Under the pieces are notes generated by a model. It was given only the letters and a program-made list of their open reading frames with translations. It was not told the DNA's origin and ran no database searches. Positions 1 through 33,453 of a DNA stretch of 64,000 nucleotides are shown here, in pieces. This stretch comes from Verrucomicrobiota bacterium (GTDB taxonomy: Bacteria; Verrucomicrobiota; Verrucomicrobiia; Palsa-1439): NCBI GenBank assembly GCA_003152315.1, contig PLZV01000003.1:124159-188158 (forward strand). The letters are read 5' to 3'. Both the position numbers and the translations under genes were made by a program. How positions within the stretch are numbered: the stretch's first letter is position 1; every line of letters starts with the position of its first letter.

Positions 1-2768
1 AGCAGCGGTGCGGCGCCATTCGTCGGACTGGCGATGAAGCCGGCGATCGGGGCTCCTGCCATGGTCGTCACGGTAATGTAGTTCGAGAGCGTCAGCGTGT
101 TCGAGCCGAGAGGACCAAACACCAGCAAGCTGACTGAGAACGCCCCGGCGTTGGTGTAGGGATGGCTCGGGCTGGTCGAGGCGCTCGAGCCGCCGTCGCC
201 AAAGTTCCACATACGGCTGGTAATGGAGCCACTGGAAGCATCTGTAAAGCTCACGAGCAATGTCGCGCCGCCGTTGGTCGGGCTGCCCGTGAACCCGGCC
301 GACGGTGCGATCGCGGCAGAGCCCATAACGGCATTTGTTGAAATACCGCCGTTGCTGACAGTGATCATCGATCCCGTAAACGACCCGGCGAAACCGGGGC
401 TGAAGCTGACGCTTACCGCGCCGGTCTGCCCGGCGTTCACGTTGAAAGGGCTGCCGCTGGCGAGGGCAAATCCTAAACCGGACGCGGTGGTGGTGCCGCT
501 AAGTGTTTGCAGCCCGGTGTTGGCGATGGAGAACGACTGCATACTGCTTTGCCCCACGGGCAATAAACCGAAGTCGAGACTGCCCGGCACGATGGTCAAC
601 TGCGGGAGGCTGTTGGTGACGACGATATAATTAATTCGCTCATTGGTACTCACACCCGCCGGGCCGCTGACAATCAGCGTGACACTGTTCGTGCCTGGCG
701 AGTTGTAGTTGTACCCCACGATCGTGTTCATCGTATTGGTTGTCCCACCGTCTCCGAAGGTCCAGGATCGGTTCGTGATCGCGCCGGTAGAACCATCGGT
801 GAACGTCACTGCCAGTGGAGTCGGCCCGGTTGTCGGCGACCCTGTGAAGTCCGCGGTCGGCGGCTGTACCAAAATGATCGTGAAACTGGCGCTGGCAGTG
901 GCAATCCCCGTCAGACCTCCCAGAAATGCCTTGGCGCCAACCATAGCGGAGATTGTCAGGGAAAATGGTCCTGCGTAGAGGGTCGAGTTTGTCGTCGGAA
1001 CGGTGTTATCCAGCGTGTAATAAATAGCAGCGCCCGGTGTGGTATCGGCCAGCGTCACCAAGACCGAGTTGGTGAATGTGCCGCCGTTGGGCGCGATGGT
1101 GGGCGCCGCGACGATGTTGCCAAACACCGACAGTCCCGTTTCCGTTCCGACATAGACCTTGCCGTTGGCGACAGTCGGCACAGTGAACTTGACTGCCCCT
1201 CCGAGAATGTCCCGCGCGCCGGCCAGCGTGCTGTTGTAAAGTTCCTGGGAGACATGCGCGGCATTGTAGGCATGTAGAATAGACGGCCCACTGGAATCGA
1301 AAGCGTCCGATTGGATCGCCCAGACGATGGCGTCATTCGTGCCATTGGCCGAAATGCTGGGTGTTGCACCGGGGAAACCAAAAACCGTGGAACCCTGCGA
1401 TGACGGAGTTGATACGATGGAACCGTCGGTGATGGTGAACGCCTTGATCACGTCATTGGCACCAACGAAATACAGCGTGCCATTGAAATACGCAGGCGTG
1501 TCGAAACACTGCCCAATGGCGCCCAGAAGCGATTGCACGATCTGTGTGTCACCCGCCGCATTGAATTTCCCCATATTGTCCCGGTCGACCAGGTAGAGCG
1601 TGCCCTCTTTGCCGGCGCAAACCACCAAATGCGGATGTGCCCCACTGCCCGCCTCGTCCGGCAGCAAGACGACGCCGCCCGAAGCGAGGTCATTGTCGTT
1701 AGTTTCCAAGCTTTGTTCGTTATAGGGCGTGAAGTAATCGGTCACCACCAGTGAATTACTGATGGACAATTTGAGGAGGGTGTCGCCGTAGTTGCTGTTA
1801 ACCGGATCAAATGTGCCGTTGCCAGTGGACACATACAAATTGCCGTTGGCGTCGCAAGCGGGGCCGCAGCCGCTCGCCCAAATGCCGGCCCGTTCGCCAT
1901 TCGGAGTTGCATTGAAAATCCCATTTGTCGCGAGCGTCTGGGCATTGAATCCAAACAACCAGCCGTGGTATGGGTTGATGTCGCAATGTGACCCGCAGCC
2001 AAAATACACAACCCCGTTGTTCAACAGCAGTGCCATGCGGTTGAGCTGCAGAAATGGGCCAAAAGACACATGGCCCGAACCGTCCGTGTCGATGCCGGTT
2101 CCCAAAACGCTCCCTTGAACCACCACGGGCCCGCCGAGTTTTTCCGCACCCGTCGTTAGATCCAACGCATGCAGCCGCTGTATGTAATTCGTCACACCAC
2201 CCACAACCTCGGCTGTTTTCGCCACGACGTAAATGGCGCCGCCGACGGGGTCAATGACGGGAGTGCTGGTGATGCCGATTTCGGCGACGAGATCATCGCA
2301 TTGGATGTTGCCGTTTGGAACCGACGTAATACCCCCGGATGGATTGATAAAACTGACCTGCCAAAGCGGCGTTGCGTTCGAGCCTGCGTTGCTGTCAGCG
2401 TCGAACGCGTAGACACTATCGTGCTCGGTGGCGACATACAATACGTTATGCACACCCTTGCCGGGAATCGTGACATTCGCCAGGACCAGCGGTTGAGCAT
2501 ACACATACCCATCGACAGCGTAGCTAAAGAGCATCCCGAAGTTGTTGGAATTGACGTTGGCCAACGTCAGGACGGTCTCGTTCGTGTTCCGGCCGGTGCG
2601 GGCAATGTCGTTATGGTAGGTCAGGACACTGACGGAGGCCGCCGAGGTGACGTTTACCATCGCCGCAAATAAAAATAGGACAGCGTACCGTCTCAAATGA
2701 AGATCCCAAAGGGTCGAGAATGCGCGGGAGGCCGCGCCCGGCTTGATTCTATATACCTTCCAAGACAT
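1..2768 (-). CDS. Secreted PQQ-like beta-propeller protein with chitobiase-like and PKD domains (C-terminus beyond window)
   Basis: Reading the minus strand from an ATG at 2768 gives an open frame of 922 codons that runs off the left edge, so the gene is partial. The start has AAGGAG just upstream. A charged leader and a hydrophobic stretch (residues about 25-45) suggest export. Residues about 50-540 look like a PQQ-type beta-propeller, with blades such as LYVATEHDSVYAFDAD and NLYVSTGNGTFDPV. A chitobiase C-terminal-like domain follows (about 555-625, TPGAAIYYTLDNTVPTTNST). Next come a PKD domain (about 633-706, WTFGDGGT), an ASH/HYDIN-like segment (LDFGLLPVGQSSMQSFSIAN), a second PKD (WNFGDGGS) and the beginning of a third. 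Such proteins are usually extracellular or surface carbohydrate-associated; the propeller fold does not prove that PQQ is bound. It is divergent from pqqB. Confidence 0.85.
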   Translation of the reverse strand, partial: MSWKVYRIKPGAASRAFSTLWDLHLRRYAVLFLFAAMVNVTSAASVSVLTYHNDIARTGRNTNETVLTLANVNSNNFGMLFSYAVDGYVYAQPLVLANVTIPGKGVHNVLYVATEHDSVYAFDADSNAGSNATPLWQVSFINPSGGITSVPNGNIQCDDLVAEIGITSTPVIDPVGGAIYVVAKTAEVVGGVTNYIQRLHALDLTTGAEKLGGPVVVQGSVLGTGIDTDGSGHVSFGPFLQLNRMALLLNNGVVYFGCGSHCDINPYHGWLFGFNAQTLATNGIFNATPNGERAGIWASGCGPACDANGNLYVSTGNGTFDPVNSNYGDTLLKLSISNSLVVTDYFTPYNEQSLETNDNDLASGGVVLLPDEAGSGAHPHLVVCAGKEGTLYLVDRDNMGKFNAAGDTQIVQSLLGAIGQCFDTPAYFNGTLYFVGANDVIKAFTITDGSIVSTPSSQGSTVFGFPGATPSISANGTNDAIVWAIQSDAFDSSGPSILHAYNAAHVSQELYNSTLAGARDILGGAVKFTVPTVANGKVYVGTETGLSVFGNIVAAPTIAPNGGTFTNSVLVTLADTTPGAAIYYTLDNTVPTTNSTLYAGPFSLTISAMVGAKAFLGGLTGIATASASFTIILVQPPTADFTGSPTTGPTPLAVTFTDGSTGAITNRSWTFGDGGTTNTMNTIVGYNYNSPGTNSVTLIVSGPAGVSTNERINYIVVTNSLPQLTIVPGSLDFGLLPVGQSSMQSFSIANTGLQTLSGTTTASGLGFALASGSPFNVNAGQTGAVSVSFSPGFAGSFTGSMITVSNGGISTNAVMGSAAIAPSAGFTGSPTNGGATLLVSFTDASSGSITSRMWNFGDGGSSASTSPSHPYTNAGAFSVSLLVFGPLGSNTLTLSNYITVTTMAGAPIAGFIASPTNGAAPL

Positions 2769-2882
2769 AAGCTCCTTACTATACTCATGAATCCTGGCGG
2801 ATGCCAGAGGTCGCTTCAAGTCCGATCGCCACCACATAATTTTGGTGTCCTCGTTTCGTGGAAGCAGCTAAGCTTGGGTGTC
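2769..2882. promoter_or_regulatory. Divergent intergenic region between the propeller gene and pqqB
   Basis: These 114 bases separate the start codons of two divergent genes and must hold the promoter of the propeller gene and probably that of pqqBCDE. I see the AAGGAG ribosome site of the minus-strand gene at its left end but no convincing -35/-10 pair. No PqqA-like peptide is encoded here: the short reading frames lack an ExxxY motif. Confidence 0.4.
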
Positions 2883-3803
2883 ATGCGGATCATTCTTTTG
2901 GGCACGGCAGCCGGCGGCGGGCTTCCCCAGTGGAACTGCAACTGTTCGAACTGCCGAGGGGCGCGGACCGGTTCCGCGCGGATTGCGCCGCGCACACAAT
3001 CGTCGGCAGCCGTCAGCGCGGATGGGCGGGCGTGGTTTCTGTTGAATGCCTCACCGGATCTACGGGTGCAACTCGAGAGTGTTCCTCGCTCGCGCCTGCG
3101 CACGAAAGCGGTGCGCAGCACGAGGATCGAGGCGGTGCTTTTGACAAATGCGGACCTGGACCACACGCTCGGGTTGCTGTTGATGCGAGAAGGCGGGAAG
3201 ATCCACGTTCACGCCACGCCTCAGGTTCGCACGGCGTTGACCCGGGGTATTTCACTCGCGCCCACTCTCCAATCCTTCGGCGGTATCCTCTGGACGAAAC
3301 CGCCGGGTAAACTTTCACCATTGCTTCGTCGGGATGGCTCAAAGAGTGGATTGCAGTACCAGGCGGTTAACGTGATCGGCAAGCCGCCACGGTTTCTGAA
3401 AGGTCGTCAGTCGAATGGGTTTGGGCATAGCATCGGTTACCGCATTGTGGATGAGAAAAACGGAGGACGATTGCTTTTTCTGCCGGATATCGCTGTCTTG
3501 GACGGACGGACCATCGATGAGTTGTCGGATTGCGACATTCTGCTGTTTGATGGAACTTTCTGGTCTGAAGATGAAATGCGGAAACTGGGGGTCGGCAGCC
3601 TGTCCGCGAAGCAAATGGGCCATGTCCCTATTAGCGGTCCTCAGGGCAGTTTGAAACAACTTGCCCCATTCCAGGTCACTCGTAAGATCTATACGCACAT
3701 TAATAATACGAATCCGATACTTCGGGAGGGATCTCCGGAAAGTACCGCCGTCCGTGTCGCGGGCATGGAAATCGGGCGCGACGGAATGGAGATTGTGATT
3801 TGA
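2883..3803 (+). CDS. pqqB: PqqB, PQQ biosynthesis metallo-beta-lactamase-fold protein
   Basis: This 306-residue protein has the usual PqqB length. The start at 2883 (MRIILLGTAAGGGLPQWNC) matches the family; the frame is open further upstream but that part has no PqqB character. Visible hallmarks are the N-terminal zinc site C19-x-C21-x2-C24 (WNCNCSNC), the segment NADLDHTLGLL corresponding to the metallo-beta-lactamase metal site, and LLFDGTFWSEDE. Family knowledge: PqqB takes part in late PQQ formation, with hydroxylase activity reported on a tyrosine-derived intermediate. It heads a tight plus-strand operon; pqqC begins 2 bases after its stop. Confidence 0.95.
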   Translation: MRIILLGTAAGGGLPQWNCNCSNCRGARTGSARIAPRTQSSAAVSADGRAWFLLNASPDLRVQLESVPRSRLRTKAVRSTRIEAVLLTNADLDHTLGLLLMREGGKIHVHATPQVRTALTRGISLAPTLQSFGGILWTKPPGKLSPLLRRDGSKSGLQYQAVNVIGKPPRFLKGRQSNGFGHSIGYRIVDEKNGGRLLFLPDIAVLDGRTIDELSDCDILLFDGTFWSEDEMRKLGVGSLSAKQMGHVPISGPQGSLKQLAPFQVTRKIYTHINNTNPILREGSPESTAVRVAGMEIGRDGMEIVI

Positions 3804-3805
3804 GC

Positions 3806-4504
3806 ATGGAAATCAAATTGTGGGACAAAGAAACGTTCCTCGCGCGGCTGCGGGACGTAGGAACCAAACAGTATCACCATCAGCATCCGTTCCACATCCG
3901 GATGAACGCGGGCCAACTTGCGCCGAACGCCATTCGCGCCTGGGTTGCCAATCGGTTCTACTATCAACGCAATCTTCCCATGAAAGACGCGGCGATCATT
4001 TCCAATTGTCCAATTCGCGAAGTGCGGCGGACCTGGCTTCATCGAATTAGTGACCACGATGGTTCCACTCCGGGGACCGGCGGTATCGAAACCTGGTTGA
4101 AGCTCGCGGAGGCGTGCGGAATGTCGCGGGAGGAGATCCTGGATGAGCGTCATGTCGCGCCGTCTGTCCGTTTTGCCGTGGACGCGTACGTGAACTTCGC
4201 GCGCAGCAAGCCGTGGCCCATCGCCGTGGCGTCATCGCTGACCGAGTTATTCGCACCCGACCTGATGGCGGAGAGGTTGGCAGCCTTTCAAAAATACTAC
4301 ACGTGGGTCAAGCCGGAGGGCTTTGATTACTTCCGGGGCCGCGTGGTTCAGGCACGCGTCGATTCCGACGAAGGTCTGCAATTAACTCTCCAGTATTGCG
4401 ATACCCCGGCGCTGCAGGAAGAAGCGGTGCGGGCATTATCTTTCAAGTGCGATGTGCTCTGGACCATTCTCGACGGCATCCAGGCGGCCTGCACGACTTC
4501 CTAA
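3806..4504 (+). CDS. pqqC: PqqC, pyrroloquinoline-quinone synthase
   Basis: This 232-residue all-helical protein catalyses the final cofactor-free, O2-dependent eight-electron oxidation and ring closure to PQQ. Family signatures are clear: YHHQHPFHIRMNAGQL near the N-terminus, the RFYYQRNLPMKDAAIISNC segment, and RRTWLHRISDHDG. I chose the ATG at 3806; a TTG at 3800 overlapping the pqqB stop would add two residues. Translational coupling with pqqB is likely. Confidence 0.95.
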   Translation: MEIKLWDKETFLARLRDVGTKQYHHQHPFHIRMNAGQLAPNAIRAWVANRFYYQRNLPMKDAAIISNCPIREVRRTWLHRISDHDGSTPGTGGIETWLKLAEACGMSREEILDERHVAPSVRFAVDAYVNFARSKPWPIAVASSLTELFAPDLMAERLAAFQKYYTWVKPEGFDYFRGRVVQARVDSDEGLQLTLQYCDTPALQEEAVRALSFKCDVLWTILDGIQAACTTS

Positions 4505-4575
4505 TACTGGGGCGTGGCCCGACACCCCTTGGTTGATTTGGACAGAAACACGGCTTACACTTCCCGCGCGTGGTT

Positions 4576-4860
4576 ATGTCGCCGATATTACCAGGGGAGC
4601 GCCCCAAGTTGTCATCGCGAGCTCGCCTTCAAAAGGACAAGGTGACGGGCAAACCCATCCTGCTCTATCCCGAAGGAATCCTGATTCTGAATCCGACAGC
4701 ACACGCGATTGTGACCCATTGTACGGGTGCAGAGACGTTCGAGGATATTGTCGCCAAACTGGCGGCGCAATATGGAGCTTCTCCTGAAGACCTGCGCGCG
4801 GATGTCACCACATGCCTGGACCGTTTCCGATCACTGAACCTTTTGGAAATGTTGGCATGA
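4576..4860 (+). CDS. pqqD: PqqD, PqqA peptide chaperone
   Basis: This 94-residue protein has the PqqD fold signature: KLSSRARLQKDKVTGKPILLYPEG, then LNPTAHAIVTHCTG and a C-terminal helix pair (TCLDRFRSLNLLEML). PqqD binds the precursor peptide PqqA and presents it to the radical-SAM enzyme PqqE. The ATG at 4576 is preferred, with GTG at 4570 as an alternative. It lies 71 bases after pqqC, the only sizeable gap in the operon, and its stop overlaps the pqqE start (ATGA). Confidence 0.93.
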   Translation: MSPILPGERPKLSSRARLQKDKVTGKPILLYPEGILILNPTAHAIVTHCTGAETFEDIVAKLAAQYGASPEDLRADVTTCLDRFRSLNLLEMLA

Positions 4861-5966
4861 GTCGACCAATTCCAAGGCCGTACAGCTTGCTCGCTGAGGT
4901 GACCTATCGCTGCCCGCTGCACTGCCCCTACTGCTCGAATCCCACGCAATTCTCCCGTACCGCAGCGGAACTCACGCGGGACGAATGGAAACGGGTGTTG
5001 GATGAAGCGGCCGAATTGGGAGCGCTCCATGTCGGTTTTTCGGGTGGCGAACCGCTCCAGCGTCCCGATCTCGCAGAACTCGTTGCGGCTTCATGCGCGG
5101 CGGGCCTGTATTCCAACTTGATTACCAGCGCGATCGGCTTGAGCCGTCCGCGCGCCGAGGAATTGAAGGCGGCGGGTTTGGACAGTGTGCAGATCAGTTT
5201 TCAATCGGATGAGGAGCCACTGGCCGACAGGATCGCCGGGACCAAGTCCCATGCGAGCAAACTGGAAGCGGCGCGACTGGTCCGTGAAATCGGTTTTCCG
5301 CTGACGATCAATATTGTGCTGCATCGGGGAAACATTGCCCGCGTCGCGCGGATCGTCGCGCTCGCCGAGACCCTCGGGGCGGAACGGCTTGAGTTGGCCA
5401 ATACGCAATTCTACGGCTGGGCCTTCCAAAACCGTTCGGCATTGCTCCCGACCCGCGACCAAATTGAAGACGCGACTGCGGTGGCGTTGGCCGCAAAGAA
5501 CCGACTCTTGGGGAAAATGGAAATCCTGTTCGTTGCCCCTGATTATTACGGGACACGACCCAAGCCCTGCATGAATGGGTGGGGCAATCGACACTTGACG
5601 GTCAACCCCGTGGGTGATGTCCTCCCTTGTCCAACGGCCGGCGGAATAAAATCGTTACGCTTTGAGAACATTCGCGAGAAACCGCTCCGCTGGATTTGGA
5701 CCGAGTCGGAATCCTTCAATCGCTTTCGCGGGACGGAATGGATGCCGGAGCCTTGCCAAAGCTGCGAATTTCGGGAAATCGACTTCGGGGGCTGTCGTTG
5801 TCAGGCTGCGTTGCTGACGGGAGACGCCGCAACCACTGACCCGGCGTGCTCGCTCTCGCCATTTCGCGAACAACTCACGAGATTTGTGGAGTCAATACAG
5901 GGTGCGACCGAGAAAGGTTTTGAAGCGGACACAAGCAGTGTCGCTTACCGCGAGAACCCGGCGTGA
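4857..5966 (+). CDS. pqqE: PqqE, radical SAM enzyme crosslinking Glu and Tyr of PqqA
   Basis: This 369-residue radical SAM protein starts at the ATG that overlaps the pqqD stop. The CxxxCxxC cluster motif is CPLHCPYC near residue 20, followed by GFSGGEPLQRPDL. The C-terminal SPASM-type cysteines are present (CMNGWGNRHL, DVLPCPTAGG, EPCQSCEFREIDFGGCRC, DPACSLSP). PqqE forms the carbon-carbon bond between the glutamate and tyrosine of PqqA, the first committed PQQ step. Its stop codon is only 6 bases from the stop codon of the convergent pqqA gene. Confidence 0.95.
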   Translation: MSRPIPRPYSLLAEVTYRCPLHCPYCSNPTQFSRTAAELTRDEWKRVLDEAAELGALHVGFSGGEPLQRPDLAELVAASCAAGLYSNLITSAIGLSRPRAEELKAAGLDSVQISFQSDEEPLADRIAGTKSHASKLEAARLVREIGFPLTINIVLHRGNIARVARIVALAETLGAERLELANTQFYGWAFQNRSALLPTRDQIEDATAVALAAKNRLLGKMEILFVAPDYYGTRPKPCMNGWGNRHLTVNPVGDVLPCPTAGGIKSLRFENIREKPLRWIWTESESFNRFRGTEWMPEPCQSCEFREIDFGGCRCQAALLTGDAATTDPACSLSPFREQLTRFVESIQGATEKGFEADTSSVAYRENPA

Positions 5967-5972
5967 GTGAAC

Positions 5973-6071
5973 TTACTCGAGCTCGGCGCAATAAGCTGTG
6001 CATTCCATGCTGACAGGCACAACTTCAAAGTCCGGCTTGACCCAACGCTCAACGATTTCACTCTTCATCAT
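5973..6071 (-). CDS. pqqA: PqqA, PQQ precursor peptide (small gene on the opposite strand)
   Basis: This is a 32-residue peptide read on the minus strand. It contains the PqqA arrangement W10-x-K12-P13-x-F15, then M22-E23-C24-T25-A26-Y27, and ends with CAELE. The E23-x3-Y27 pair is the Glu and Tyr that PqqE joins and from which PQQ is built. Two adjacent ATG codons (6071 and 6068) are possible starts; only a weak GGGA precedes them. It lies convergent to pqqE and 30 bases after the stop of the upstream cupin gene, so it may be transcribed from the cupin side. pqqA normally precedes pqqB on the same strand, so this placement is unusual. No other PqqA-like peptide was found near the operon. Confidence 0.9.
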   Translation of the reverse strand: MMKSEIVERWVKPDFEVVPVSMECTAYCAELE

Positions 6072-6101
6072 TCCCAACTATAAATCGCCACGAAGCAAAT
6101 G

Positions 6102-6542
6102 TCAATTCGAGATCGGCTTGACGATAAAATACAGGAACGGGTTGCTGGTCTCGGTAAACTGATGGGGCGTGCCGTTGGGCACAATAATCACATCGCCCTT
6201 CTTGAGATGGTGTGTCTCGCCCCCCGTAATCGACGTGCCGCGCATCTGGCCAGGTGAGACCACCTTGCCGTCGACCATCGTGCCGCCGGTCACGAAAGTT
6301 GCGGTACCATCCACCACGTAGAACACGTCGGTTTCTTGCGTGTGCAACTCGACCAGTCCCGGTCGCTCGCGTCGGCCAGCATGGACTTTGTAGCCGGGAG
6401 TCTCGATCAGCGGCGCACCTTTGGCGAACGCTGCGGAGACCTTTTCGCTATCGATATAAGTGACCGGGGCAACCGCCTTCGGTTCGGCGAGCGTTACGGA
6501 AGCGAACATTGCTGCCACAGTAATCGCAATAAAGTTCTTCAT
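6102..6542 (-). CDS. Secreted cupin-domain protein
   Basis: A 146-residue protein with a signal peptide (MKNFIAITVAAMFASVTLAE). The mature part is a single cupin barrel: motif 1 includes HTQETDVFYVVDGTATFVTGG, and motif 2 is HHLKKGDVIIVPNGTPHQF. The histidines and glutamate suit a bound metal. The substrate is unknown; such proteins are common near polysaccharide lyase and hydrolase genes, and it is divergent from the esterase below. It sits just upstream of pqqA on the same strand, which could couple their transcription. Confidence 0.85.
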   Translation of the reverse strand: MKNFIAITVAAMFASVTLAEPKAVAPVTYIDSEKVSAAFAKGAPLIETPGYKVHAGRRERPGLVELHTQETDVFYVVDGTATFVTGGTMVDGKVVSPGQMRGTSITGGETHHLKKGDVIIVPNGTPHQFTETSNPFLYFIVKPISN

Positions 6543-6679
6543 ATGATGGCTCCTTCAGTTCCAGATTACCCGGGACCGGGTCGCTTCACAAGAAGCGCCG
6601 AAAGCGCAATTGACGTTTCAATCTGATCGAGATTAGGGTTGGACCATGACGTAAGCTTCTTTCGGGAGGGCTATCGGCG

Positions 6680-7972
6680 ATGATCACTTACTCAAGAAAG
6701 TTCGGCATTGTTGGCGTTGCGGTCTTTTGCCTGGCGATCACCTCGTGCCGGACACCGTCCACGTCCGAACAGGGCCACGAGTATCTGGATTCCCTGGTCC
6801 AGATTTTGCCGGAGGCGCCGACGAATGGGCCGGCCTTGTGTCAGGCCAACTATCTCAAACCGGAGCAGGGCAAGGCCGTGCTCGACGCAACTCTGGCGCA
6901 GTTTCCCAATCGTGAGTCTTGGGATGCCTACGCCCGTCATGTGCGCGAACGCATCCAACAAGGCGCGGGTCTCGCGCCGTGGCCGCGGCGCACCCCCCTG
7001 AATCCCATCATTCGCGGGCGGCGCGTCTATGACGGTTATACGGTTGAGAATGTCGCATTCGAGTCGGTGCCGGGGTATTTCGTCACAGGGAATCTTTTCC
7101 GCCCCCTGAATGCGAAGCCGCCATATGCGGCCGTTCTTGCGACCCACGGTCACGCCGGGAAAATCAAAAAACCGGAGGACTACGACCACTACGCCCGTTT
7201 TGCACCGTCCATGCAGGCGCGTTGCGCCGCACTCGCGCGCATGGGCGCTGTTGTCTTGTCGGTCGATATGTTCGGCATGGGCGACTCCATCCTTGAGGTC
7301 GGCGAGGAGGCGCATCGCCATCCGTTCTCGATGACCATCCAGGCGTGGGACAATATGCGGGCGATCGATTTTCTGCTCTCGCTGGAAGGCGTCGACCCGC
7401 GCCGCGTCGCGGTCACCGGCGAATCCGGCGGTGGCACGCAGGCCTTCCTGCTAACCGCGCTCGATTCGCGCGTGGCGGTCAGTGTGCCGGTGGTCATGGT
7501 GTCGGCGCATTTTTTTGGAGGTTGCCCGTGTGAGAGCGGGCTGCCGATTCATCGGAGCGCCGATCATTTTGCCAATAATGCCATGATCGCCGCGCTCGCT
7601 GCGCCCCGGCCGATGCTGGTCCTTTCCGATGGCAAGGACTGGACCGCCAACGTCCCGAAGGTGGAGTATCCGTTCCTACAAAAAATCTATGCGTACTATG
7701 GCGCAGAGGAAAATGTAATGAACATCCACCTGCCGACAGAAGGGCACGACTACGGACCTTCGAAGCGCGCCGCGATGTACCGCTTCATGGCCGAGCGATT
7801 CGGGTTGAATCTCGCCGCCATCCAGGACGCCGACGGGAGAATCGATGAATCACGCGTCACCATCGAGCATGCCGGGCCCAGGCACGTTTTCAACGATGAC
7901 TTCCCTCTGCCCGCGCACGCCTTACGCGACGCAGCCGAGGTCGAACGAGCGCTGCGGAAACTCCAGCAGTGA
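6680..7972 (+). CDS. Lipoprotein alpha/beta hydrolase, acetyl-xylan-esterase-like
   Basis: 430 residues. The leader ends in a lipobox (LAITSC, Cys23), so it is probably a membrane-anchored lipoprotein. The alpha/beta-hydrolase core includes LATHGHAGK (oxyanion region), the nucleophile elbow GESGGGTQ with Ser249, VLSDGKDWTANVP and LPTEGHDYG with His356. Overall it resembles the acetyl-xylan esterase/dienelactone-hydrolase-like group often encoded beside polysaccharide-degrading enzymes. Removing acetyl groups from pectin is a reasonable inference from the adjacent DUF4861, GH105 and GH28 genes, but the substrate is not visible from sequence. Confidence 0.8.
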   Translation: MITYSRKFGIVGVAVFCLAITSCRTPSTSEQGHEYLDSLVQILPEAPTNGPALCQANYLKPEQGKAVLDATLAQFPNRESWDAYARHVRERIQQGAGLAPWPRRTPLNPIIRGRRVYDGYTVENVAFESVPGYFVTGNLFRPLNAKPPYAAVLATHGHAGKIKKPEDYDHYARFAPSMQARCAALARMGAVVLSVDMFGMGDSILEVGEEAHRHPFSMTIQAWDNMRAIDFLLSLEGVDPRRVAVTGESGGGTQAFLLTALDSRVAVSVPVVMVSAHFFGGCPCESGLPIHRSADHFANNAMIAALAAPRPMLVLSDGKDWTANVPKVEYPFLQKIYAYYGAEENVMNIHLPTEGHDYGPSKRAAMYRFMAERFGLNLAAIQDADGRIDESRVTIEHAGPRHVFNDDFPLPAHALRDAAEVERALRKLQQ

Positions 7973-8057: not shown

Positions 8058-9227
8058 ATGAATAGAATCGAAACAATCCTGACCATCGCGCTGCTCACCG
8101 CAGTGCCGGCATTCTGCCAGGCTGCGACCGGCGAACTGAAGGTCAAAGCGGTCAATAAATTGGAAATCGCCCGGTCCAGCCAGACGATTGAGTTATCGGC
8201 TGATCAACTCGCGCCACTGGGTGAAAAGGATCTGCGCAAAATCCACGTCAAGGACGCCAGCGGCAAAGAGTTGCTTTGCCAGGCAGTGGATACGGATGGC
8301 GATTATCATCCCGATGAAGTGATATTCCAGGCTGACTTCGCTGCAGGAGCAACCAACAGTTTCACGGTCACGGTCGGCAAGAAATGGGATTACACGAAGG
8401 ACCAGTTCAAGGCGTATGGGCGCTTTGTACGCGAGCGCTTCGATGATTTCGCCTGGGAAAATGACCGTATCGCCCATCGGACCTACGGCAACGCCCTGGA
8501 AACATGGAAGGAAGAGCCATTGACCAGCAGCGCCATCGATGTCTGGGTCAAACGCGTTCCCTCCCTGGTGATCAACGGCTGGTACATGCTCGAGAATTAC
8601 CATCTCGACCACGGCGAAGGCGCCGACTTCTATTCGGCCGGAGCAACCCGCGGCAACGGTGGCGACGGTCTTTGGGCCGCCGACAAACTGTGGGTTTCCA
8701 AAAACTTTGTCGACTCCCGCGTGCTTGCTTGCGGCCCAATCCGCGTGATGTTCGAGTTAACCTATGAGCCGTTTGATGTCAACGGGACGAAAGTTTCCGA
8801 GGTCAGGCGGATCAGCCTCGATGCCGGTCAAAACCTGGACCACTACCAGGTTACCTACAAACCGGAACGACCGACCGCGCTGACCGTGGGCATCGGCATC
8901 AAGAAAAAAGACGTGACGCAGACCGATGCGAAGATCAGCCGCGGTTCGTTCTCCACCTGGGAGCAATTGAGGGATGACAAGCTGGAGGAAAGCCACCTCG
9001 GCCAGGTAATTGTCCTCGATCCGAAATTGTTGGTGAAGACAACTGACGACAAGCTGAACTACCTCGTCCTCGGCCAGGCGTCGAAGAATAACACCATCTC
9101 CTACTGGGCCGGGTTTGGTTGGGACAAGGGCGGCCAATTTGCCGACTACGATGCCTGGAAGGGGTACGCGGATGAATTTGCGCGGGGAGCGCTCTCGCCG
9201 ATCGAAGTCAGTGTGTCCGCTGACTGA
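8058..9227 (+). CDS. Secreted DUF4861 protein, polysaccharide-locus associated
   Basis: 389 residues from the ATG at 8058, which has AGGAAAGAGG about 7 bases upstream; the longer open frame reaching back into the esterase gene is not needed. A signal peptide (MNRIETILTIALLTAVPAFCQA) precedes a DUF4861-type sequence with many aromatic residues (YGRFVRERFDDFAWENDRIA, NGWYMLENYHLDHGEGADFY, GATRGNGGDGLWAADKLWVS). DUF4861 genes recur in pectin- and uronate-polymer loci; the biochemical role is not settled. It is 7 bases upstream of the GH105 gene, so the two are very likely cotranscribed. Confidence 0.85.
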   Translation: MNRIETILTIALLTAVPAFCQAATGELKVKAVNKLEIARSSQTIELSADQLAPLGEKDLRKIHVKDASGKELLCQAVDTDGDYHPDEVIFQADFAAGATNSFTVTVGKKWDYTKDQFKAYGRFVRERFDDFAWENDRIAHRTYGNALETWKEEPLTSSAIDVWVKRVPSLVINGWYMLENYHLDHGEGADFYSAGATRGNGGDGLWAADKLWVSKNFVDSRVLACGPIRVMFELTYEPFDVNGTKVSEVRRISLDAGQNLDHYQVTYKPERPTALTVGIGIKKKDVTQTDAKISRGSFSTWEQLRDDKLEESHLGQVIVLDPKLLVKTTDDKLNYLVLGQASKNNTISYWAGFGWDKGGQFADYDAWKGYADEFARGALSPIEVSVSAD

Positions 9228-9234
9228 GGCCAAC

Positions 9235-10872
9235 ATGACGCGCATCTCCCTACTGGTACTCTGGGTGATTTTTTTCACGACGCCGATCCTGCTTGCGACG
9301 GACGCTCCGCTAACCAATGGGTTTGCGGGAAGCACCCCGTTCCAGTGGTCGGTTCGCATGGCGGATTCGGAGATGGCCCGCCGCGGTGACAGCCTGGCTT
9401 GGAAGGAGGGCGGCACCGCCAAATGGGATTACACAACCGGCCTCTTCACGCTCTCCCTCCTCAAACTCCATGAGCGGGTAGACGATCCGCGCTACGTCGC
9501 CTTCGCGGAAAACGCCATCGGCTCGTTCATTTCGACGAACGGCGCGATTCATGGTTACAAGTTTGAGGATTACAGCCTCGACAACATTGATCCGGGACGG
9601 ACGGCGCTCGATTTGTACCAATTAACCAAGGACGAACGGTACAAGAAAGCCGCCGATATATTGCGCAAACAGCTAGACCTGCAGCCCCGTACCGCCGACG
9701 GCGGGTTCTGGCACAAGCAGCGATACCCGCACCAGATGTGGCTCGATGGCCTTTACATGGGTTCGCCGTTCTACGCCGAGTACGCAAAACTTTTCAACGA
9801 GCCGACGGCTTCGTTTGACGAAGTGGCGAAACAGATCCGACTCGTGGCCGCGCACACGCATGAACCCAAGAGCGGTTTGTTCTATCATGGTTGGGATGAG
9901 ACGAAGGAACAGACTTGGGCCGACAAAACCACCGGCGCTTCCTCGAATTTCTGGGGCCGGGCCATCGGGTGGTATGCCATGGCGTTGGTGGATGTACTCG
10001 ATTATTTCCCAAAAGATCATCCCGCCCGCCCGGAGATCATCGCCACGTTGAAGAAACTTTGCGACGGCGTTGTAAAACATCAGGATCCGGCGAGCGGACT
10101 ATGGTGGCAGGTCATGGATCAGGGTGGCCGGCCGGGTAATTACCTCGAAGCCAGCGCATCGAGCATGTTCGTGTACGCAATGGCCAAGGGCGTCAACCAG
10201 GGCTACCTCTCGTGCGATTACGTGCCGGCAATCGTCAAGGGCTACAAGGGCATCATCGACAAACTCATCAAGACCAACGCCGATGGCAGTGTCTCATTGA
10301 CGCAATGCTGTTCCGTGGCGGGCCTCGGCGGAAGTCGCGATGGATCGTTCGCGTATTACATCAAGGAGCCCATCGTGGACAACGACCTCAAAGGTGTCGG
10401 CCCTTTCATCCTCGCCGGTATCGAGGCGCAACCAATGCTCTTCAGGTTTGTGATGGAAAAGCAACTCTCACCCAAGCTTGTCGAAAAAATGATGCGCGAA
10501 AGTCCTATCCTCCGGTTACTTGCGGAGGGACCCGATTACAAAACAGAAACGCGGGCTTTTTTGGAAAGAATCAAGGCAAAGCACACGGCTAAAGAAATTC
10601 AGGATTGGGCACAGAAGCTTCTCGACGTCCACAAGGACGATAAGCGACCTTTTCAAATGCCTCGTGGGGAAACACCCGCCTTTATTGTGGAGTTGGATCC
10701 ACCGTCTAGGCCGTTTGTAACTGTATTCCCAAAATCGTCTGTCAGCATTGATTGGGGTGGTGGATTCGGTCATTGGGGCTTGATGGTCGGCGCGAGTAAC
10801 CCCCCGTCGAATTCCACTTTGTACACTATTGAATGGGTACCGGGGATATACGCGTACCAAACTACTCAATAG
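9235..10872 (+). CDS. GH105-type unsaturated rhamnogalacturonyl hydrolase with an unusual C-terminal extension
   Basis: 545 residues from the ATG at 9235. After the signal peptide, residues about 20-395 are a complete (alpha/alpha)6 GH105/GH88-like domain: KWDYTTGLFTLSLLKLHERV, HKQRYPHQMWLDGLYMG (candidate catalytic Asp171), FWGRAIGWYAMALVDVLDYF, ETSASSMF-like EASASSMFVYAMAKGV, and the usual end VGPFILAGIE. These enzymes hydrolyse the unsaturated uronic acid left by pectate or rhamnogalacturonan lyases. Family members usually stop here; this one continues for about 150 residues with a helical part and a final WGGGFGHWGLMVG segment, with visibly lower GC. That extension looks like a fusion to an unrelated sequence. 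Confidence 0.88.
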   Translation: MTRISLLVLWVIFFTTPILLATDAPLTNGFAGSTPFQWSVRMADSEMARRGDSLAWKEGGTAKWDYTTGLFTLSLLKLHERVDDPRYVAFAENAIGSFISTNGAIHGYKFEDYSLDNIDPGRTALDLYQLTKDERYKKAADILRKQLDLQPRTADGGFWHKQRYPHQMWLDGLYMGSPFYAEYAKLFNEPTASFDEVAKQIRLVAAHTHEPKSGLFYHGWDETKEQTWADKTTGASSNFWGRAIGWYAMALVDVLDYFPKDHPARPEIIATLKKLCDGVVKHQDPASGLWWQVMDQGGRPGNYLEASASSMFVYAMAKGVNQGYLSCDYVPAIVKGYKGIIDKLIKTNADGSVSLTQCCSVAGLGGSRDGSFAYYIKEPIVDNDLKGVGPFILAGIEAQPMLFRFVMEKQLSPKLVEKMMRESPILRLLAEGPDYKTETRAFLERIKAKHTAKEIQDWAQKLLDVHKDDKRPFQMPRGETPAFIVELDPPSRPFVTVFPKSSVSIDWGGGFGHWGLMVGASNPPSNSTLYTIEWVPGIYAYQTTQ

Positions 10873-10884
10873 AATTCGCTTCGA

Positions 10885-11757
10885 TTACTGAGCAGCCACC
10901 GCGAGTCTGGTCACTATGTCGGAAAAGCTGTTCACGACGGCTGCGAGATTCTTGATCAATTCCTGCCCGCTACCCGTGGAAGTTTGGACGCAGAACGCGC
11001 CTTTAAATTCCTGTTGCGCGAGTTCTTTTAGGACCTCGGCAACCGCGGCGGTTTCCTGCGGACTGCTGCTGCCCTTCAAATGAACTTCAAAAATGCGGCC
11101 CTTCAGTTTGCGGACACAGTCCACGGGGTCCTGGCCGGCGCTACGCCACGCGATAACGTCGGCACAAATACCAATGCGCGTGGAGCGCTCATGGATGGCT
11201 TGAAATAGCGCGTTACCATCAGCGTACGGCGGCGAACCGGGCTGGTTGAGGATGGCAATGTTGATCTGATATTCGTTGGCGAGTTTATCCAGCATTTCCA
11301 ATGAATCCGGGGAAGGTGTGCCAATGATGTTCTTCACCTTGAGGCCTTTGGCGAATTCGAAAACTTTGCGTGCCTCGGCTTCGGTGTGGCCAAATTCCGT
11401 GACGCCGTAGCTTACGATGTCCAGATGGTCGTCCCTCAATCTAGTGTTGAGAATCTCGAGATCCGACGGCGTCATGTCCGAGTTGATCTTAACGCTCTTG
11501 CGGTCCGGCGACAGCGACTGGCCGGGAGACAACTCAATGTGATGAAAGCCATTTGTATGCAAAACGTCGAGCATCTCCGTAACCGTGAGTTCATGGAACG
11601 TCGACGCCTGACATAACAACTGCCACGAGAGTTTCTTCAGGCCCGCGTGGTCGATGTGGATTGCTGGCGGAATTGTTCCGCCGTCATCTGCGGCGTACGC
11701 GGTAGAGGATAGGGTTAGCGCCAATGCGGCGATAGTGGAAAGTCGCATGGGAAGCAT
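10885..11757 (-). CDS. Secreted sugar-phosphate isomerase/epimerase-like TIM-barrel protein
   Basis: 290 residues with a signal peptide (RLSTIAALALTLSSTAYA). The rest resembles the xylose-isomerase-like TIM barrel: FHHIELSPGQ, LDIVSYGVTEFGHTEAEARKVFEFAKGLKVKNIIGTP, IGICADVIAWRSAGQDPVDCVRKLKGRIFEVHLKGS. The metal-binding glutamate expected at the ILNQPG strand is not obvious, so catalytic activity is uncertain. ATG at 11748 is an alternative start. It is convergent with the GH105 gene and divergent from the GH28 gene. Confidence 0.75.
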   Translation of the reverse strand: MLPMRLSTIAALALTLSSTAYAADDGGTIPPAIHIDHAGLKKLSWQLLCQASTFHELTVTEMLDVLHTNGFHHIELSPGQSLSPDRKSVKINSDMTPSDLEILNTRLRDDHLDIVSYGVTEFGHTEAEARKVFEFAKGLKVKNIIGTPSPDSLEMLDKLANEYQINIAILNQPGSPPYADGNALFQAIHERSTRIGICADVIAWRSAGQDPVDCVRKLKGRIFEVHLKGSSSPQETAAVAEVLKELAQQEFKGAFCVQTSTGSGQELIKNLAAVVNSFSDIVTRLAVAAQ

Positions 11758-11879
11758 GGTTGAAGCAAGGGGACAGCGGAGTCAAGAGCCAAAGCCCTTC
11801 CATGCTACTGGTTTCTGCTCTAATATGTTTGCGTCGGCACAAGCCTTCACGTTAGGAAACAGGCGGGAGTCGATCCATC

Positions 11880-13505
11880 ATGAAACGCATACTCGCAGTT
11901 TGCCTGGGCTTCGTCCTGACCGGAGGGTTCATCGCGATACCGCTTCGCGCCGCACCTTTCGATGTTAAAACGTTCGGCGCCATTGGCGACGGCAAAACGG
12001 TTGATACCGCCGCCATCAACAAGGCCATCGATGCCGCGCACGCGGCCGGTGGGGGAACGGTGCAATTCCCGCCGGGCACGTACCTAAGTTTTTCAATTCA
12101 TCTCCAAAGCAACATCGCCTTGTACCTCGAACATGGGGCGACGATCCTCGCCGCGGATCCGCCGGCGAACGGTGGCGCTGCTTACGATCCGCCCGAGACA
12201 AATCAGTGGGACAGGTATCAGGATTTTGGCCACAGCCACTGGCACAACAGCCTGATCTGGGGGGAAGACCTGGAGAATGTTTCCATCCTTGGTCCGGGTT
12301 TGATCCATGGCAAGGGACTCAGCCGGGGCAGCAGCGCACGTACCCGGGCGGCGACCAACGCCCCACCCTCGGAAGCTCACCGCGATGGAGACAGGCCTCA
12401 GTATCCCAACCCGCGCGACACGCTTGAGGCCGGCATCGGCAACAAATCGATTGCCCTCAAGAACTGCCACAACGTAATCCTCCGCGACTTTTCGATCCTG
12501 CACGGCGGCCACTTCGCAATCCTGGCTACGGGTGTAGACAACTTCACTCTCGATAATCTCAAGATCGACACCAACCGCGATGGCATGGACATCGATTGCT
12601 GCCGCAACGTGCGCGTTTCGAATTGCAGCGTGAATTCGCCCTGGGATGACGCCATTTGTCCGAAGAGTTCTTATGCATTGGGTTATCTCCGACCGACCGA
12701 GAATCTGACCATCGTGAATTGCTTTGTCACCGGTGGCTACGAGGAAGGCACGTTGCTCGATGGCACCTACAAGCGTTTCACCGGCACCGAAACCAACCGG
12801 ATCGGCCACACAGGTCGCATCAAGTGTGGAACCGAATCCAACGGCGGCTTCAAGAACATCACGATTGCCAATTGCGTCTTCGATTATTGCGGTGGGCTGG
12901 CGCTGGAGAGTGTCGATGGCGCCATCATGGAGGACGTGACCATTGACAACATCGCCATGCGCGACATTGTGAACTCACCGATCTTCATCCGGCTTGGCAA
13001 TCGCGCACGCGGCCCGAACAATCCGCCCGTCAGCGTTATTCGCCGCGTCAACATCAGCAATATTGTTTGTTCGAATTCCAGTTGGCGTTTGGGCTCGGTC
13101 ATTAGCGGTATTCCCGGTCATCCTATTGAGGACCTTCACATCAGCAACGTCCACTTCGTCTATCAGGGCGGCGGCGTCAAAACGAATGCGACCATTGATC
13201 CTCCCGAGAGCGAAAAGATGTATCCGGAGCCTGGTATGTTCGGCACGATGCCGGCCTACGGCTTTTTTATTCGTCACGTGAAGGGCCTCGAGATGGACCA
13301 TGTGGATGTGAGTTACGTGAAGGAGGAGATGCGTCCCCCAATCGTGCTCAACGATGTGGGCGGTGCGGACTTCGACCACGTGAAAGCGCGGCGCACACCC
13401 GACGTACCTTTCTTCGTCTTGCACAACGTCAGTGAATTCACGTTGCACAACTGTCCGGGGTTGGCCGACACAAACCGGGCGACAGTCGAACGCGACTCAT
13501 TTTGA
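11880..13505 (+). CDS. Secreted GH28-family polygalacturonase-like enzyme
   Basis: 541 residues with a signal peptide (MKRILAVCLGFVLTGGFIAIPLRA). The N-terminal start of the right-handed beta-helix is typical of pectate-lyase-like and GH28 proteins (DVKTFGAIGDGKTVDTAAINKAIDAA). Catalytic-region motifs are DTNRDGMDIDCCRNV, SPWDDAICPKSS and RIKCGTES, the last corresponding to the GH28 RIK motif. The first two differ from the canonical NTD and G-DD forms, suggesting the distinct GH28 subfamily seen in Verrucomicrobiota and Bacteroidota rather than a classical endo-polygalacturonase. It would act on galacturonan or rhamnogalacturonan outside the cytoplasm. Confidence 0.85.
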   Translation: MKRILAVCLGFVLTGGFIAIPLRAAPFDVKTFGAIGDGKTVDTAAINKAIDAAHAAGGGTVQFPPGTYLSFSIHLQSNIALYLEHGATILAADPPANGGAAYDPPETNQWDRYQDFGHSHWHNSLIWGEDLENVSILGPGLIHGKGLSRGSSARTRAATNAPPSEAHRDGDRPQYPNPRDTLEAGIGNKSIALKNCHNVILRDFSILHGGHFAILATGVDNFTLDNLKIDTNRDGMDIDCCRNVRVSNCSVNSPWDDAICPKSSYALGYLRPTENLTIVNCFVTGGYEEGTLLDGTYKRFTGTETNRIGHTGRIKCGTESNGGFKNITIANCVFDYCGGLALESVDGAIMEDVTIDNIAMRDIVNSPIFIRLGNRARGPNNPPVSVIRRVNISNIVCSNSSWRLGSVISGIPGHPIEDLHISNVHFVYQGGGVKTNATIDPPESEKMYPEPGMFGTMPAYGFFIRHVKGLEMDHVDVSYVKEEMRPPIVLNDVGGADFDHVKARRTPDVPFFVLHNVSEFTLHNCPGLADTNRATVERDSF

Positions 13506-31185: not shown

Positions 31186-33453
31186 CTAGACACCGGCGCT
31201 CACGACCACCTGCGGTTGGCGCACCTTGGAACGCTCGGTGGACGACGTTTCCAATCGACGGCGGAAGCACACGTGGCGCTGGCGTGTGTATTCGACAAGC
31301 GGATGCCACACGGTGTGTTGCAGGCGGTGGCGGATGAGCAAATGCCAGAAACGGTTCGAGCGTTTGTAGAGGTACGACATGGCGAGATACGGCAGCACGG
31401 CGCTCGCGTCCACGGGACGGCGCTTCCAAATCGAACGGTGCGAAAACAATCGTTCATAACACCACGCGTAGCCGTCCGCCAACTCTTCGGGCGTCATGTG
31501 ACGCGGTTGGAAGACGACATGGGCTGTGTCATACAAGTTCCAGTTGCGATGCAACAGCCGCTTTTCCGTCTCCATCTTTTTGTAGAGCGGTGTCCCCGGA
31601 TAAGGGGTAAGGATGTGGAAGGTGGCGCATTCGAGCCGGTGGTCCTCGATCCATTGTGCGGTCTTCTCGAAAACGTTCTGACGATCAAGGTCGAAGCCGA
31701 GCACGAAGCTGCCGTTCACCTGGATGCCGTTGTCGTGGAGGATGCGAACGCGTCGCCCGTAATCCTCAGTGCGCGAGGTTCGTTTGTGGGCATCGACGAG
31801 ATTGTCGTCGCTCAATGACTCGAAGCCGATGAACACCCCCGTACAACCGGCCAGCGCCATCTCGCGCACGAGCGCCGGTTGGTCGGTGACATCGATCGTG
31901 ATGGCAGCGCTCCAGATTTTCTCGAGGGGACGCAAAGCACGGCAGAGTTTGCGCAGGTATTCAGGACGTGAGCCCAGGTTATTGTCGATGAAGACACCAT
32001 ACGGCTGGCGGTCCTTCGCGAACTCCTGGACGATTTGCTCCGGATCACGCATCAAGTACGGCATGTGCAAGCCGTCGGTTGAGAGATAGCAGAAACCACA
32101 ACGATTGTGGCAGCCGCGCGTGGCGATGAGGCTTGTCGATGTAAGGAAACCCCAACGGGGGACCAATTCACGACGCGGCGCCGGGTCTTCGCGATACGGA
32201 CGGCGATAGTCGGCGTGGTACACGCGCTGCAACGCGCCAGCTTCCACATCGCGGAGGATTTGCGGCCAGAGTTGTACGCCGTCACCGATCGCCAGCGCAT
32301 CGGCGTGGGGCGCGCACTCGTCGGGACAGGAGAGGGCATGCAGCCCGCCCAACACCACGAGGGCTCCCTGTTGCCGGTACCAGCGCGCAAGTTCGAACGC
32401 GCGTTCGGCAAACGTGAGATGCACGGTGATCCCCACAACTTGCGGGAGCGGGACGCATGGTGGCGGACCTTGCAGTAGGTTCTCATCCCAGTAGGATACG
32501 TCCCAATTCGGCGGGGTAGCCCCCGCGATGCTGGTGAGTGCGAGCGTGGGCGTCAGCACGTGTTTGCCGAAGCTGGCGTGCGGATCTTTCGGGTAGAAGG
32601 GATTGATCAGTAGCGCCTGATGGGGCCGGGGCTGTTGCCGCGGCACACTTGCGTTGAGTAGCGGCGCGACCCGCAAATCGTGTGGATGAAACAACGTCTT
32701 CGTCGGTATCGGCGACGGGCGTTTCCGCGAAATGACTTGCTCAGCGGCGCCAAGGGCAAAGGAGATTCCGTGAAGGATTGCGTCCCTGACCGCCGTGAAG
32801 TTGGCCCGCGACCCTCGCACCAGTTCCAGTCCTGAAACGTCCAAGGCGGCGAGCGTTGCCCGGTGCTCCACGGTTAACGACGGGATAACGGTGACGAAGC
32901 GCGTGAATAACAATAGCCAGAATCGTGTCCGCTTGGGTGACTGATTGAGGAGGTCGCAGCCGAAACGAATGTGGAATTTCAAATCGTGCAATAGTTGGTC
33001 GCAGACTGTTTGCAGGACACCCGTACCAGCCGCGTCGCGCAACCGGGCCAGAAAGTTGAGGACGAGTGCATCCTGAGCAAGCTGGCCTGAAATTGTCCGT
33101 AAAACTCCAGCTTCGTAAAGCCGCGGGAGCTTCGGCAGGTGGAAAGGATGGGGAATCCTCGGAGCGTGGAGGCAAGGTGCCGTCAGGAGTTGTGCGGCGT
33201 GTCTCAAGAGTCGGGCATGTTCCTGCTTCTCAGCGGCGAGGAACTCAACCATAGTGTCGAACTCGGTGTTGTCCTTCGACCGTGTTTCTACCAGGCGCTC
33301 GGCGGCATGTTCAGCTTTGTCGGCCAATCGGAGCAAGGAACAATGGACTGGTCCGCGCAGGCGCGGGCGGAGAGGAATGCCTTCATGCCAGGCGATGCCG
33401 CGGCGGTCGAGTTCGTTTTGGCGGAAGTAGGCGAGCCAGTCGGCGGTATTCAT
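31186..33453 (-). CDS. Fusion of ferritin-like domain, B12-binding domain and radical SAM domain
   Basis: 755 residues. Residues about 30-200 are helical with ferritin/rubrerythrin-like motifs (FLAAEKQEHARLL and LLHDLKFHIRF). A B12-binding-like domain follows (ALLINPFYPKD, VVGITVHLTFAERAFELARWYRQQGALVVLGGLHA). The radical SAM core starts at ATRGCHNRCGFCYLS (CxxxCxxC), with GVFIGFESLSDDNL and FVLGFDLDRQN. Radical SAM enzymes with B12 domains often do methylations or ring rearrangements; the N-terminal ferritin-like addition is uncommon, and some of its metal ligands look replaced. Substrate unknown. A palindrome lies 18 bases upstream of the start. Confidence 0.8.
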   Translation of the reverse strand: MNTADWLAYFRQNELDRRGIAWHEGIPLRPRLRGPVHCSLLRLADKAEHAAERLVETRSKDNTEFDTMVEFLAAEKQEHARLLRHAAQLLTAPCLHAPRIPHPFHLPKLPRLYEAGVLRTISGQLAQDALVLNFLARLRDAAGTGVLQTVCDQLLHDLKFHIRFGCDLLNQSPKRTRFWLLLFTRFVTVIPSLTVEHRATLAALDVSGLELVRGSRANFTAVRDAILHGISFALGAAEQVISRKRPSPIPTKTLFHPHDLRVAPLLNASVPRQQPRPHQALLINPFYPKDPHASFGKHVLTPTLALTSIAGATPPNWDVSYWDENLLQGPPPCVPLPQVVGITVHLTFAERAFELARWYRQQGALVVLGGLHALSCPDECAPHADALAIGDGVQLWPQILRDVEAGALQRVYHADYRRPYREDPAPRRELVPRWGFLTSTSLIATRGCHNRCGFCYLSTDGLHMPYLMRDPEQIVQEFAKDRQPYGVFIDNNLGSRPEYLRKLCRALRPLEKIWSAAITIDVTDQPALVREMALAGCTGVFIGFESLSDDNLVDAHKRTSRTEDYGRRVRILHDNGIQVNGSFVLGFDLDRQNVFEKTAQWIEDHRLECATFHILTPYPGTPLYKKMETEKRLLHRNWNLYDTAHVVFQPRHMTPEELADGYAWCYERLFSHRSIWKRRPVDASAVLPYLAMSYLYKRSNRFWHLLIRHRLQHTVWHPLVEYTRQRHVCFRRRLETSSTERSKVRQPQVVVSAGV

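Follow-up and report, generated by a model that had tools for sequence, protein, structure and literature searches.

This locus raises the question of whether a very short frame that lies behind pqqE on the opposite strand is a genuine precursor gene of PQQ biosynthesis and, if so, how it came to stand outside its operon. The frame is located in the window, which is the whole 64,000-nucleotide stretch of DNA analysed here, from a Verrucomicrobiota genome (G000) of 4.89 Mb in 62 contigs that is 95.8% complete. The initial annotation described a PqqA-like peptide from its W-x-K-P and E-x3-Y pattern, and this frame is confirmed. The 32-residue translation, MMKSEIVERWVKPDFEVVPVSMECTAYCAELE, passes the curated cut-offs of both the Pfam PqqA model PF08042 (21.8 bits against 21.1) and the NCBIfam model TIGR02107 (21.8 bits against 20). 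An alignment of 15 sequences revealed that W10, P13, E23 and Y27 of PqqA are invariant, and the Glu-x3-Tyr pair destined for PQQ is formed by E23 and Y27 in the window peptide. The window holds one frame with the W-x-[KR]-P...E-x3-Y pattern and a nearby stop; sequence simulated with a first-order Markov model yields ~0.017 per 64 kb. Run against the whole genome, a 29-position profile of relatives, which includes the window peptide, detects the window pqqA with an E value of 3e-14 and gives no second hit. Judged by its sequence, the frame is an ordinary PqqA substrate of the PQQ pathway. A stretch of 14 bases, TGGGTCAAGCCGGA, which encodes WVKP in pqqA (6031-6044), is repeated exactly in pqqC (4304-4317), where it also encodes WVKP; the sharing is probably a coincidence.

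The enzyme genes pqqB, pqqC, pqqD and pqqE are all present on one strand with equivalog-level matches (Table 1). PqqE aligns with the solved structure 6c8v over nearly its whole length and keeps the radical-SAM CxxxCxxC motif. Since the peptide and the enzymes show nothing unusual, standard chemistry is expected, in which PqqE, assisted by PqqD, would cross-link Glu23 to Tyr27 before PqqB and PqqC process the product, as in the established pathway. In a canonical pqqABCDE operon pqqA comes first and on the same strand, whereas the window pqqA is on the opposite strand behind pqqE; it is nevertheless encoded beside pqqB-E, at a distance of 6 bases from pqqE. The coordinates bear out both the convergent arrangement with 6 bases between the stop codons and the 30-base spacing between the end of the cupin frame at 6102 and the pqqA ATG, two features that had been reported for this locus. 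Elsewhere in the window, a 755-residue frame (31186-33453, minus strand) combines a long N-terminal part with a radical SAM-like motif of the CxxxCxxC type (CHNRCGFC).

Table 1. Positions of the pqq genes and adjoining features in the window, and of candidate PQQ users elsewhere in G000
Feature	Position	Strand	Basis
pqqB, start set by alignment (MRIILLGTAAGG), frame open further 5'	2883..3803	+	TIGR02108, 357 bits
pqqC, overlapping the pqqB stop	3800..4504	+	TIGR02111, 303 bits; alignment to solved PqqC 3hml
pqqD, peptide chaperone	4570..4860	+	TIGR03859, 59.5 bits (cut-off 46)
pqqE, radical SAM/SPASM enzyme	4857..5966	+	TIGR02109, 516 bits; alignment to solved PqqE 6c8v
Spacer of 6 bases between the stops of convergent pqqE and pqqA	5967..5972	.	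last base of the pqqE stop at 5966, pqqA stop from 5973
pqqA, PQQ precursor peptide, core E23-C-T-A-Y27	5973..6071	-	PF08042 and TIGR02107 over cut-offs
Promoter-like site TTGACA-N17-TATAGT, 11/12 consensus	6077..6105	-	sigma-70-like consensus match
Small cupin gene, neighbour of pqqA	6102..6542	-	PF07883, 41.7 bits
Candidate PQQ user, 2116-residue open frame with DUF11, GSDH, Fn3-associated and NHL repeats	L075 2798-9145 (G000:C25)		
Candidate PQQ user, 462-residue GSDH-NHL frame	L076 1445-2830 (G000:C11)		

The initial annotation had named a canonical pqqA elsewhere in the genome as the observation that would count against this gene. Three search routes, using the Pfam model, a generic PqqA peptide and the profile of relatives, found no second pqqA above noise in the 95.8% complete genome, and a second copy could be hidden in the missing ~4%. 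The genome therefore differs from those with orphan extra copies of pqqA beside an operon copy, as 1 copy was found in G000. From its genes, the organism can apparently make PQQ. Searches of the genome for users of the cofactor found no quinoprotein of the methanol or alcohol type and none of the XoxF type. Matches over the cut-offs of the PQQ_2 and PQQ models were rejected as quinoproteins, because they come from a beta-propeller protein kinase. Two proteins with a glucose/sorbosone dehydrogenase (GSDH) domain, on contigs C25 and C11, are the only candidate users that these searches found. One of the two is closer to hedgehog-interacting protein than to known PQQ enzymes, and the other shows a weak resemblance to a putative oxidoreductase (2ism) and to extracellular PQQ sugar dehydrogenases.

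The placement of pqqA was surveyed in other clusters. In 18 other Verrucomicrobiota clusters and in ~25 from other phyla, a convenience sample with near-copies, chiefly from Nostoc, the gene is upstream of the cluster and shares its strand; the exceptions are two genomes, G740 and G649. The loci from outside Verrucomicrobiota comprise nine from Nostoc, two each from Acetobacter and Paracoccus, one actinobacterial contig, and ten plasmids from Streptomyces, Methylovirgula, Thioclava, Azospirillum, Phaeobacter, Sinorhizobium, Neorhizobium, Rahnella and Acinetobacter. A Paraburkholderia plasmid locus (L094), in which the profile found no pqqA within 13 kb, was excluded from the counts. Two loci that encode close relatives of PqqE (L004 and L019) both begin inside pqqE and have no pqqA on the downstream side that they cover. 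The pqq cluster is patchy, since pqqE is absent from both other genomes of the same genus that were examined (G009 and G010). Transfer of the cluster between lineages is likely, as judged from this distribution. No relative was found among viral contigs. The Methylovirgula plasmid (L090) carries pqqA-pqqD-pqqE at 2155-7104 without a nearby pqqB or pqqC, beside a cbpA/cbpB modified-peptide pair; this extra PqqD-PqqE may act on the cbpA/cbpB peptide, with no PQQ made at the locus.

A search of relatives for the displaced frame, as the initial annotation had suggested, found the same convergent placement in G740, and the E-x3-Y pair, whose loss would have spoken against the gene, is kept in the relatives. 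G740 belongs to a different family and its PqqE is 73% identical to that of the window; its pqqA, MTDQDLTWVKPDFENIPTNMECTAYSE, is on the opposite strand behind pqqE with a stop-to-stop gap of 115 bases, and nothing pqqA-like was found in the 5.6 kb before pqqB. In G649, from a third family and with a PqqE that is 71% identical to the window's, pqqA (MNTSKEEKWVKPDFEEVPSSMECTAYSETLD) lies upstream of pqqB but is divergent from it, with 108 bases between the two starts. The profile of relatives detects likewise one pqqA each in G649 and G740. A displaced pqqA was seen in these three genomes only; its recurrence in independently assembled genomes shows that it is no artefact of assembly. Several local features are specific to the relatives. 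In G740 (L070), the interval that separates pqqE from the convergent pqqA contains a short repeat, TTCGTGTCAATTCGTGAAATTCGTGT (9040-9090), which neither the window nor the loci of the other genomes have, and past pqqA there is a long inverted repeat (9300-9440). In G649 (L069), a gene for a TonB-dependent receptor (11230-13392, minus strand) is directly beyond pqqA and convergent with it.

PqqB, PqqC and PqqE of 25 clusters were concatenated for a tree with 200 bootstrap trees, which places the window, G740 and G649 together on one side of a branch (bootstrap 96, SH-aLRT 96), and the label 'displaced' needs a single change in 96% of the bootstrap trees. The three also have in common the peptide type WVKPDFExxPxxMECTAY; that of the colinear sisters, G493 and G703, is W-x-K-P-x-V-K-V-V...CCECTAY. 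Because the three clusters form one clade with one peptide type, pqqA would have left the operon in their common lineage, and because this clade spans three families the displacement would be old. Inside the clade the grouping of G740 with G649 is weak (support 82/68), and the best tree does not pair the two convergent members, the window and G740. A tree constrained to unite them is mildly rejected (p-AU 0.035), which calls for at least two rearrangements; the order of events within the clade is weakly resolved.

The displaced gene appears to have a promoter of its own. The promoter-like site of the window overlaps the cupin stop codon and sits between cupin and pqqA, and its -10 element ends 5 nt before the first pqqA ATG, so that the predicted transcript start (6071-6068, minus strand) would give a leaderless mRNA. 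G740 features TTGACA-N16-TAGAAT (11/12) upstream of pqqA, and G649 has TATAAT together with AGGA. Among 4000 random 120-nt segments taken from the same loci, 8 scored 11/12, and some of these 8 possibly contain these very sites; the 64-kb window has one other equally good match, with ~0.7 expected at two or fewer mismatches. TTGACA-like sites are also found before pqqA in the colinear relatives G703 (10/12) and G493 (9/12), and for this reason pqqA probably had its own promoter before its move. The initial annotation proposed that precursor supply in the window may be uncoupled from the enzymes, which is plausible given a sigma-70-like promoter between cupin and pqqA.

The anatomy of the locus and the promoter-like site together make it quite likely that an ordinary PqqA substrate is produced here from its own transcription unit. 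In one Verrucomicrobiota pqq lineage, pqqA would have parted from pqqBCDE and become a separate unit. Starting from the ancestral order A>B>C>D>E>, a single inversion of pqqBCDE, with pqqA and its promoter staying in place, would yield A> <E<D<C<B. Read on the other strand, this is the window order; a further event would give the divergent order of G649. Inverted repeats flanking pqqBCDE, as a mark of such an inversion, were sought and only weak, chance-like pairs were found. The promoter of pqqA, and not its position in an operon, would then set the precursor dose. Gene identity, the sole copy found, the arrangement, the clade and the promoter-like sequence are observed; that transcription begins at this site, that an inversion took place and that dosing is independent are inferences. 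PqqA protein has been reported at ~20-fold above PqqC or PqqE (PMC2294125), and a report on pqqA copies cites PqqA supply as rate-determining in Methylovorus (PMC11317620). A separate pqqA unit would meet a known need in light of this excess and of the limiting supply in Methylovorus.

What the separate unit means for regulation can be read in two ways. Neutral rearrangement, in which pqqA took its promoter along when it was relocated and the new order is of no consequence for regulation, has an even chance of being the full account. Two different orders among three members are what would be expected if only closeness is kept, and the promoter is perhaps older than the move, as the sites in colinear G703 and G493 indicate; against this, the displacement is old and held in one clade across three families, and pqqA adjoins the cluster in all three members. 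The neutral and the regulatory version are about equally likely, as they have the same anatomy and differ only on whether regulation changed. A fully specified regulatory scheme, in which a separately regulated single-gene pqqA lets peptide supply control cofactor output, with the enzymes expressed independently, and in which the tail-to-tail arrangement of the window and G740 adds mutual transcriptional interference, is rather unlikely.

That transcripts of the two sides could be antisense to each other was also proposed for this locus. In such antisense coupling, read-through from pqqBCDE and from pqqA would give messages that overlap at their tails and restrict one another. The 6 bases between the window stops invite this idea, and a crude scan found no intrinsic terminator between or just past them, so an overlap of the 3' ends in the window is possible. 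The proposal is weakened, however, by the 115-nt gap in G740 and the divergent genes in G649, and the overlap region folds like shuffled sequence (z 0.12). Close convergence is thus no conserved trait, which leaves the antisense idea weak, and we regard it as improbable. Co-transcription of cupin and pqqA, with the cupin acting in PQQ chemistry or its control, is slightly less probable again; the two genes are on the same strand and closely spaced, but a consensus-like promoter occupies the spacer, and no cupin homologue was found in the pqq flanks of the relatives examined, among which the G740 contig ends ~270 bases upstream of pqqA. A link of the cupin to pqqA is unsupported. That the peptide is no gene and the true pqqA lies elsewhere has a negligible chance, for although the frame is very short and its family scores are barely over the cut-offs, the whole-genome profile hit without a second match, the low expectation for the motif and the same placement in G740 all speak against it.

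The locus shows that a sole pqqA need not lead its operon, and that this departure is common to a clade. Surveys that seek pqqA only before pqqB would call these species PQQ-incomplete. Setting colinear G493 and G703 against the displaced window, G740 and G649 would also make a natural test of PqqA dose as the limit on PQQ synthesis. PQQ biosynthesis in Verrucomicrobiota outside the methanotrophs is little described, as indicated by a report that PQQ biosynthesis genes are absent from its few PqqU-bearing Verrucomicrobia (PMC12124388). No description of a convergent or divergent sole pqqA was found in the literature searched, a scope that leaves most subscription journals outside.

Canonical pqqABCDE operons have been described from Methylacidiphilum infernorum (Minf_1233-1237; PMC2474590), and operons of this type are also found on the Rahnella, Acinetobacter and Thioclava plasmids. 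The window has the same five gene families, the pqqBCDE order and an E-x3-Y peptide, but instead of preceding pqqB on the same strand its pqqA lies reversed after pqqE and has a promoter-like site to itself. Orphan extra copies, pqqA2 and pqqA3, are reported from Methylorubrum extorquens AM1 (PMC11317620), and Methylophilaceae have 3-12 pqqA copies (PMC4109929). In those genomes pqqA likewise lies outside the operon and is separately expressed; they have several copies, however, whereas the sole copy found in the window genome is the displaced one and still adjoins the cluster. The actinobacterial order pqqA-C-D-E-B, seen on the Streptomyces griseofuscus plasmid (L099) and in L016, similarly demonstrates that pqq order is not fixed, but there it is pqqB that has moved, all genes are on one strand and pqqA comes first. 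Set beside these systems, the locus represents a well-known pathway in an uncommon gene order, one that is kept across one clade.
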